A stretch of DNA of 64,000 nucleotides from an uncultured Tateyamaria sp. (GTDB taxonomy: Bacteria; Pseudomonadota; Alphaproteobacteria; Rhodobacterales; Rhodobacteraceae), in NCBI RefSeq assembly GCF_947487805.1, contig NZ_CANKXW010000007.1, forward strand, positions 62,001 to 126,000, written 5' to 3'. This document shows, piece after piece, positions 18,496 to 20,829 of this stretch; position 1 is the first letter of the stretch, and each line of letters begins with the position of its first letter. Below the pieces are notes generated by a model. That model had not been told where the DNA came from, did no database searches, and saw only the letters and a list, made by a program, of their open reading frames with translations. The position numbers were made by a program, and so were the translations under genes.

Positions 18496-18930
18496 TCAGG
18501 GGTGGCGGATCACCATGGCGTGCTTGTCCTCGGACGAAAAGCCCACGCTTTCATAGAACCCTTTGGCGCCGCGTCTGGTGCCGGTCATCAGCATGACCTT
18601 GTAGGCGTTCTGCGCCCAAGCGGCATGGACCGCGTGGGTCAGCACGGCCCTGCCCAGACCGCGCCCCTGCCACGGGCCTTGGGTCACCACATTTTCGATC
18701 AGCCCATAGGGCCGCGCGCCCCAGGTGACGTTGGGCATCAGATGCAGGGTGACCATGGCGCGCACATCCCCGCAGGCCAGCGCGCCAAAGACGGTCGTGC
18801 CCGGATGCGACAGCACGGCCGCAAAGGCCGCGCCGTCCTGTGTGGTCGGCCCGAAGGTCAGTTCGTTGTAAAGCGCCAGCGCCGTGTCCGTATCGTCCAC
18901 GGTCAGGGGACGGACGGGCACGTCCGGCAT
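18496..18930 (-). CDS. GNAT family N-acetyltransferase
   Basis: A 144-residue protein with the acetyl-CoA pyrophosphate-binding motif QGRGLGRAVL and the C-terminal GNAT motif GFYESVGF. Substrate unknown. Its ATG shares one base with the stop codon of ssb, so it is translated from the ssb transcript. Confidence 0.85.
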   Translation of the reverse strand: MPDVPVRPLTVDDTDTALALYNELTFGPTTQDGAAFAAVLSHPGTTVFGALACGDVRAMVTLHLMPNVTWGARPYGLIENVVTQGPWQGRGLGRAVLTHAVHAAWAQNAYKVMLMTGTRRGAKGFYESVGFSSEDKHAMVIRHP

Positions 18931-19442
18931 CAGAACGGGATTTCGTCGTCCAGATCGCGCGAGGGGGCCGGGCTGGGTTGCCCACCGCCGCCGCCGCCAC
19001 CGCCATAGCCGCCGTCGCGGTCGTCATAACCCATCTGGTTGCCGCCGCCGCCGCCGCCAAAGCTGCCGCCACCGCCGCCGCCGCCTTCGCCACGGCCATC
19101 CAGCATGGTCAGGGTCGAGGAGTAGGGACGCAGCACGACCTCGGTCGAATAGCGGTCCTGGCCCGACTGGTCCTGCCATTTGCGTGTTTCAAGCTGGCCC
19201 TCGATATAGACCTTGGAGCCCTTGCGCAGATATTGCTCTGCCACGCGCGCGAGCGGTTCGGAGAAGATCGCCACCGAATGCCATTCGGTGCGTTCCTTGC
19301 GTTCGCCCGTGTTGCGGTCTTTCCACGTCTCGGAGGTCGCGATGCGCAGGTTGCACACCTTGCCGCCGTTCTGGAACGTCCGCACTTCGGGGTCGCGCCC
19401 CAGATTGCCGATCAAAATGACCTTGTTCACCGACCCTGCCAT
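18930..19442 (-). CDS. ssb: Single-stranded DNA-binding protein
   Basis: A 170-residue SSB for replication, repair and recombination. The OB-fold occupies residues 1 to about 112 (starting [19 protein letters not shown]), followed by a glycine-rich flexible linker (about 120–155) and the acidic tip DLDDEIPF, which recruits partner proteins. AGGGGAATGCT precedes the ATG. A CtrA-type box (19509–19523) lies 67 bp upstream. Confidence 0.97.
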
Positions 19443-19508
19443 AGCATTCCCCTGTTTGGTGCCCGCGATTCCACGGGTGAAATTTGCGTTTCCCTAGCCT
19501 ACACGTGG

Positions 19509-19523
19509 TTAACGCGGGCTTAA
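19509..19523. promoter_or_regulatory. CtrA-type box TTAA-N7-TTAA
   Basis: TTAA, seven bases (CGCGGGC), TTAA is an exact match to the consensus bound by the alphaproteobacterial cell-cycle regulator CtrA. It lies between divergent ssb (67 bp) and the lytic transglycosylase gene (62 bp). Binding and direction of control are inferred only. Confidence 0.5.
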
Positions 19524-19584
19524 ACCTAGAGACTGGCGCGCGCGCGAAAAAACCGTATATTGTGCGCCAACGGCCCGCGGGGTC

Positions 19585-20193
19585 ATGAACTGGGGTGTGG
19601 TACAAATGCGGGCAATCTGGGCGGGGGCCGTGATTCTTGCACTGGTGGCAGAGGCCGGATGGGCGCAAAGCGTGTCCAGCCGCAACCGGTCCAACCTTTT
19701 CAAATCACAGACCAAAATCCTCGATACGCGGGCATCGAAACAGTATTCCAGTTCCGTGCGCCTGCAGCCCCCCAAGGTGGTGACACCGACCAAGTGGGAC
19801 ACCCAAAGCCCCAAGTTCAAAGGCAAGTACAAAGGGCCATATCTGGCGCTGGCGCGTGATGCGGCGCGCAAGCACGGCGTGCCCGAGGATCTGTTCCTGC
19901 GGCTGGTGCAACAGGAAAGCGGGTGGAACGCCAAGGCGCGGTCGCACAAGGGCGCCTATGGTCTGGCGCAGCTGATGCCCGCCACGGCGCGGTCGCTGGG
20001 TGTGGACCGCAAGGATCCGGCCGAGAACCTCGATGGTGGCGCCAAGTACCTCAAGCAGCAATACCGCACCTTTGGCAGCTGGCGTCTGGCGCTGGCCGCG
20101 TACAATGCGGGCCCCGGCGCGGTCAAGAAATACAACGGCGTGCCGCCGTTCAAGGAAACGCGCAACTACGTCAAGATCATCTGGGGCAGCTAA
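19585..20193 (+). CDS. Periplasmic lytic transglycosylase (SLT domain)
   Basis: A 202-residue exported protein. The signal peptide ends at VAEAGWAQ (about residue 28), a variable region follows, and the SLT/goose-lysozyme-like domain spans about 83–202 with catalytic Glu111 in LVQQESGWN, the [10 protein letters not shown] motif and AYNAGPGAV. It should cleave peptidoglycan glycan strands to 1,6-anhydromuropeptides. ATG 19606 (MRAIWAG) is an alternative start with a more standard signal peptide length. anmK, for recycling the anhydro sugar, occurs later in the window. Confidence 0.88.
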
Positions 20194-20307: not shown

Positions 20308-20829
20308 ATGAAACCGGGTCAATCCACATTCGAAGAGCGCCTGTCGCGCATCAACAGCGGCGCGCCGCGCAATGCCGAAGACGTGGCGATCCCGCAAAAA
20401 ACCGCAAAACTGATCCAGAGCGACCCCAAGCGCCGCCGGTTCCACCTTGATATGCTGGCCGCAGGCGGCATTGCCGGTGCGGTGGCGGGCACGTTGTTTG
20501 CCCAGAACATCGGGCTCTTGTTCCTGATGACGCTCGACTGGTCGATGATCTACGGGCTGGCGCTGGCCGATTATGAACTGGCCGCCTATATGGCCGCCTG
20601 CGCGATTGCGCCCTTCGGTTTCCTATGGAGCGTGATCATGAGCCGCGCGACCAAGCGCGCGGTTCAGTTCTGGGCCGCCTACGGCATCGGCGTGCTGGCC
20701 GCCAACCATGTGGACGGCCGCTATGTGATCGAATTCATCGCGATCCCGGCCTTTTGGGACTATGTCGGCACCTATACGTCGGCCAAGGATGTGGTGAACG
20801 GCGCGGTCGCTACTCAGCCGCAATTTTGA
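20308..20829 (+). CDS. Small membrane protein of unknown function
   Basis: A 173-residue protein with a hydrophilic N-terminal 50 residues and two to three predicted spans (about 55–75, 90–115, 122–140). No recognised motif. ATG 20308 has GAAAGGGG at ideal distance; an upstream in-frame start at 20254 lacks this. The 3' end overlaps the convergent ABC ATPase gene by 20 bp. Confidence 0.65.
   Translation: MKPGQSTFEERLSRINSGAPRNAEDVAIPQKTAKLIQSDPKRRRFHLDMLAAGGIAGAVAGTLFAQNIGLLFLMTLDWSMIYGLALADYELAAYMAACAIAPFGFLWSVIMSRATKRAVQFWAAYGIGVLAANHVDGRYVIEFIAIPAFWDYVGTYTSAKDVVNGAVATQPQF

Follow-up and report, generated by a model that had tools for sequence, protein, structure and literature searches.

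The sequence TTAACGCGGGCTTAA at positions 19509-19523, an exact TTAA-N7-TTAA lying between ssb and a divergent lytic transglycosylase (LTG) gene, is most likely a CtrA binding site that controls ssb, with CtrA acting as an activator (rough probability 0.6). The first-pass annotation had described it as an exact CtrA-type box between these two genes and had left open which of them it serves. The box is confirmed by the sequence, and the two genes by Pfam. Its assignment to the CtrA type is well supported, at the level of sequence, by the presence of ctrA, by the same motif at genes of the CtrA pathway, by conservation within the genus, and by geometry. As for the target, ssb is favoured by a constant promoter spacing across the 13 genomes of the genus that carry the box, whereas the spacing to the LTG gene varies. 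We infer CtrA binding, activation rather than repression, and the position of the transcription start from these features. The elements of the region are given below in coordinates of the window, that is, the whole 64-kb stretch of DNA that was analysed.

18930-19442, minus strand: ssb, single-stranded DNA-binding protein, 170 aa, the proposed target (Pfam SSB, E=2.4e-38)
19467-19471, no strand assigned: GATTC in the leader of ssb, matching the CcrM methylation motif GANTC, read from the sequence
near 19484, minus strand: predicted ssb transcription start, placed by the rule from PMC6180460
19491-19496, minus strand: TAGGGA, candidate -10 element of the CtrA-activated ssb promoter, with T and A at 13 and 14 nt past the box, placed by the same rule
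19498-19503, minus strand: TGTAGG (T[AG]TAG in relatives), putative alternative -10-like element of ssb, probably older, at a constant distance from the box in 13/13 genomes
19507-19512, minus strand: TTAACC, the ssb-proximal half-site, retained in place in loci L114 and L118, which lack the full box
19509-19523, minus strand: the CtrA-type full box, reading TTAAGCCCGCGTTAA toward ssb, followed by CCAC, at an aligned place common to 13/20 genomes of the genus
19519-19524, minus strand: TTTAAG, putative -35-like hexamer of ssb that includes the distal half-site, placed by by-eye alignment with TTTAAC- and TTTCAA-like elements of other ssb promoters
19533-19538, plus strand: CTGGCG, putative -35-like element of the LTG gene, placed from conserved alignment columns
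19556-19561, plus strand: TATATT, putative -10-like element of the LTG gene, placed from conserved alignment columns, at a variable distance from the box
19606-20193, plus strand: LTG gene with an SLT domain, 195 aa, the divergent neighbour (Pfam SLT, E=3.3e-29)

The LTG start was set at the ATG at 19606, and a second in-frame ATG occurs at 19585. A simple promoter scan returned nothing on the ssb side or the LTG side, and the LTG TATATT was not listed either. Divergent pairing of ssb with an SLT transglycosylase gene is widely kept. Of the 80 best among 583 named ssb loci (L020-L099), 62 have a transglycosylase match, divergent in every case, and in 60 of these 62 it lies within about 460 bp of ssb, as judged by eye. 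On its other side, the transglycosylase gene adjoins a gene for a 172-aa predicted protein (20311-20826 of the window), for which a Pfam search gave no match.

In the proposed mechanism, CtrA would bind both TTAA half-sites across the -35 region and the spacer of the ssb promoter, and the bound protein would help RNA polymerase to initiate transcription some 25 nt past the box. SSB would then be made, or its production boosted, while the CckA-ChpT-CtrA relay is on. The divergent LTG gene, with its own promoter-like elements further off, is probably not the main target, and we dropped it in that role on account of its variable spacing to the box.

The box is the sole exact match in the window, and the pattern appeared in 0 of 100 shuffles of the window with dinucleotides preserved. 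The minus strand reads TTAA-N7-TTAACC there, which matches the consensus TTAA-N7-TTAAC, so that the orientation of the box points at ssb. Nevertheless, the whole genome (4.14 Mb) holds 21 TTAA-N7-TTAA sites against 14 for a reversed-pattern control, which places a lone match weakly beyond chance, and the motif count by itself was therefore dropped as proof of a CtrA site. What lifts the ssb-LTG box above chance is its recurrence at a fixed alignment position in 13 of the 20 genus genomes, together with the column-by-column constraint on it.

All 20 genomes of the genus sample have matches to both the LTG gene and ssb, and the intergenic region was aligned for all of them. The first-pass annotation had taken conservation of the box as a check on its proposal, and 13 of the 20 indeed keep the exact box, in alignment with that of the window. 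Two further loci, L114 and L118, keep the ssb-proximal half alone, which brings this half to 15/20 at its aligned place. On a four-gene tree of the genus, the eight TTAA columns average 1.4 parsimony steps, compared with 5.1 in the seven spacer columns and 3.9 in the 138 other intergenic columns. When the 4-7-4 pattern was placed along the alignment, 4 of 117 placements did as well as the box, counting the box itself, and the remaining three coincide with the conserved A-run and -10 region of the LTG gene; without the genomes G004, G006, G015, and G018, 7 of 117 placements were as good.

The full box is missing from 6 of the 19 genomes with a ctrA match, including the nearest sister G009 (L110), in which no TTAA is left. 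The ssb box is under weaker constraint than the boxes of cckA, divL, and sciP. Loci L126 and L127 have a single TTAACCATG upstream of ssb. In L123 (G018, with ctrA) we observe a TTAA-N6-TTAA upstream of ssb, elsewhere than at the position of the window's box; CtrA sites with 6-bp spacing can work in Rhodobacter sphaeroides (PMC6180460). Presence of the box changes at least six times on the four-gene tree; an old box in the genus followed by several losses would fit this tree, although the step count by itself cannot separate gain from loss. The 3.1-Mb genome of the genus member G006 (L128), also without the full box, yielded nothing for cckA, divL, or sciP at a threshold of E 0.001, nor for ctrA at 1e-40, and its CtrA pathway is apparently gone. 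It still has TTAACCAT at the -35-like element, plus other scattered TTAA, so a half-site at this element does not need CtrA. We considered G006 as a natural knock-out and set this aside as proving little, since G004, which has ctrA, shows a like layout with one half-site at the -35.

CtrA (NF045991, 430 bits, cut-off 350) and SciP (NF051866, 115 bits, cut-off 100) are present according to NCBIfam; CckA is the best match for its protein, on a cut fragment and far under the NCBIfam cut-off, and the divL-like gene shows a PAS match under the cut-off only. The remaining 20 boxes of the genome, whose neighbours were read by eye, include those at sciP-ctrA, cckA, the divL-like PAS-protein gene, an osp-like gene, and a luxR-type gene, among others. 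The target of the osp-like box is a single-domain response regulator, and the luxR-type gene adjoins a luxI-type gene; the names divL-like, osp-like, luxR-type, and luxI-type rest on matches under the cut-off or on resemblance. CtrA sites have been predicted at ctrA, cckA, divL, and luxR2 in Dinoroseobacter shibae (PMC4046655), and a CtrA site upstream of osp has been described in R. sphaeroides (PMC9430884).

In R. sphaeroides promoters activated by CtrA, the site ends 23-24 nt before the transcription start and an invariant A occurs at -11 (PMC6180460), from which an A is expected 13-14 nt past the box. On the ssb side, T and A stand at 13 and 14 nt past the box in 13 of 13 box genomes, which fits the rule by which the start near 19484 is predicted. 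The distance from the box to the -10-like element of ssb is likewise identical in all 13. As a calibration, we looked at genomes of the genus with a match to each gene, where the full box precedes cckA in 19/19, divL in 19/19, and sciP in 17/19, and an A at 13 or 14 is found in 55 of these 55 boxes; in the own genome it is found in 12 of the 14 gene-facing boxes (14 of the 21 sites were examined). For the control gene xth, a box is present in 16 of the 20 genomes (L228-L247), and the A was seen by eye in 7 of these, indicating that it also arises without such order. The xth box, about 92-106 nt before xth, has a near-identical spacer TTAAGAAATAGTTAA in most of the 16 genomes and a flank unlike that of the other targets, and perhaps belongs to the divergent gene, whose product has FSSGSAP repeats.

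We also scored the boxes with a flank model that incorporates the spacer and flank letters of the cckA, divL, and sciP boxes and leaves the TTAA letters unscored. In the ssb orientation, the own box reaches p=0.002 and 10 of the 13 ssb boxes fall below p=0.05, whereas the same DNA in the LTG orientation gives p=0.16 for the own box and 2 of 13 below 0.05. This is a loose model: when one gene was left out of it, p<0.05 was obtained for 2/19 cckA, 6/19 divL, and 3/17 sciP boxes, which is below the ssb rate. Two -10 candidates remain on the ssb side, and by eye the distance from GANTC to the -10 does not discriminate between them because this distance, measured to the older element, is much the same in members of the genus that lack the box; we therefore dropped it as a means of choosing.

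The position of the box also bears on the sense of the regulation. The end of the proximal TTAA is 5 nt away from TGTAGG, the older -10-like element, and this type of element also occurs in relatives without the box, so that CtrA might bind in the spacer and block RNA polymerase, repressing ssb; indeed, CtrA half-sites placed over a -10 repress in Caulobacter (PMC4287350). Nevertheless, the 5' base of the box lies at -39 with the rule-predicted start, or at -32 with the older -10, both in the activating range of Caulobacter, where one full site of ctrA is taken to activate the promoter for which it lies at -39 and to repress the promoter for which it lies at -14 (PMC4287350). The T-A at 13-14 nt, comparable to the A at cckA, divL, and sciP, also speaks against repression, which we consider unlikely. 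That the box would serve the LTG gene, or both genes together, seems very unlikely. A single CtrA site can serve two divergent promoters, as in fliL2-fliF2 of R. sphaeroides (PMC6180460). For the LTG gene, the distance from the box to TATAT takes values of 31, 32, 33, 34, and 43 nt (31-34 in eleven box genomes, 43 in two), against the constant distance on the ssb side; in the 43-nt genomes, 11 extra nt move the LTG -35-like element away from the box by about one helical turn, so the phase might be kept and an effect on the LTG gene is conceivable. Beyond the spacing, the LTG side of the own sequence has no A at 13-14 nt, the flank model disfavours that orientation, and the LTG gene is preceded, on its side of the box, by a putative -35/-10-like pair of its own.

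A further alternative dispenses with CtrA altogether: the distal TTAA would be part of a sigma-70 promoter of ssb (TTTAAG as its -35), and the second TTAA an inherited chance neighbour. The distal half does lie where other ssb promoters carry TTTCAA or TTTAAC, and its overlap with the -35-like element could explain its conservation without CtrA; G006, with no ctrA match, keeps TTTAACCAT at this element, and the genome-wide motif count is barely above its control. The proximal half is harder to explain in this manner, because it lies outside both the -35 and the -10 and yet is in place in 15 of the 20 genomes, and the spacer and flank letters resemble those of the cckA, divL, and sciP boxes beyond the TTAA itself. 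We regard this alternative as quite unlikely, and retain activation of ssb by CtrA as the preferred reading.

Outside the genus, the box appears rare and, in the sequences sampled, is mostly limited to the genus. The same best 80 of 583 named ssb loci, drawn largely from Rhodobacterales, include a few from other groups and at least one (L021) from this genus; among them, a full box within 300 bp of ssb occurs at one locus, at -130. A pattern combining the box, a gap of 48-78 nt, and the start codon was found in 6 of 394 genomes of the family, two of them from this genus; the denominator comprises all 394 genomes whether or not the ssb-start part matches, and boxes can escape the pattern. In loci of other genera (L046, L063, L073, L078), a by-eye comparison shows TTAAC 11 bp upstream of the ssb -35-like TTTCAACC, forming a near-CtrA TTAA-N7-TCAA.

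By the counts obtained here, conservation of the GANTC site in the ssb leader extends more widely than that of the putative CtrA box. It occurs within 75 nt of the ssb start in 20/20 genomes of the genus, and in the -60 to -1 block of ssb in 54 of the 80 loci L020-L099 (the best 80 of 583, mostly Rhodobacterales), compared with 9, 1, 9, 4, 4, 3, 22, and 8 of 80 in eight other upstream blocks of 60 nt and 21/242 at other long ORFs of the same loci. The genome has gcrA (Pfam GcrA, 161 bits, cut-off 26.9) and a ccrM-like gene whose best NCBIfam match is CcrM at 643 bits (E 7e-194), under the 830-bit cut-off of that Caulobacterales model, and which exceeds the cut-off of Pfam N6_N4_Mtase. In Caulobacter crescentus, ssb is down-regulated without ccrM and carries a relatively conserved GANTC (PMC3973325). 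The tie of ssb to the methylation cycle is thus already known in Caulobacter, and the CtrA box is the addition in this genus. The conserved GANTC in the ssb promoter region is shared with the CcrM-dependent ssb of C. crescentus, unlike which the site here lies in the leader, about 13 nt past the predicted start, and a CtrA-type full box accompanies it.

CtrA full-site promoters are reported or predicted at ctrA, cckA, divL, osp, luxR2, and flagellar genes in Caulobacter and Rhodobacterales (PMC4287350, PMC4046655, PMC9430884, PMC6180460). The ssb promoter resembles them in its exact motif over the -35 region, in the A where -11 is expected, in the presence of the regulator, and in conservation within the genus; it differs in that its target is ssb and that the box is mostly confined to this genus. 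The arrangement of one box between divergent genes is shared with fliL2-fliF2 of R. sphaeroides (PMC6180460), unlike which the spacing here is constant to just one of the two genes. The type of site is thus already well known, and ssb as its target is the new part. In the paper excerpts searched, we found no link between CtrA and ssb, though ssb may be listed in the 2020 R. sphaeroides CtrA regulon; the 'ssb' that stands beside CtrA in the excerpts of PMC11655674, PMC3692519, and PMC3907830 refers to the quorum-sensing genes ssbR/ssbI.

The retention of the box among related species points to a coupling of SSB production to CtrA in this genus. In Rhodobacterales, CtrA is best known for motility, quorum sensing, and gene transfer. 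We tentatively hypothesize, and regard as rather doubtful in its entirety, that the genus rewired an old ssb promoter, one already bearing a CcrM site, through the gain of a single TTAACC half-site 11 bp from a -35 in which TTAA was already present, together with a new -10 (TAG). SSB would thereby have joined a CtrA programme of motility, quorum sensing, DNA uptake, and gene transfer, with the effect that cells prepared to receive DNA would stock SSB, and several lineages would since have reverted. If the activation of ssb by CtrA is true, an essential housekeeping replication protein would be wired to CtrA, and the close species that have or lack the box, including one with no ctrA match, would form a natural series of a core gene entering and leaving a regulon.
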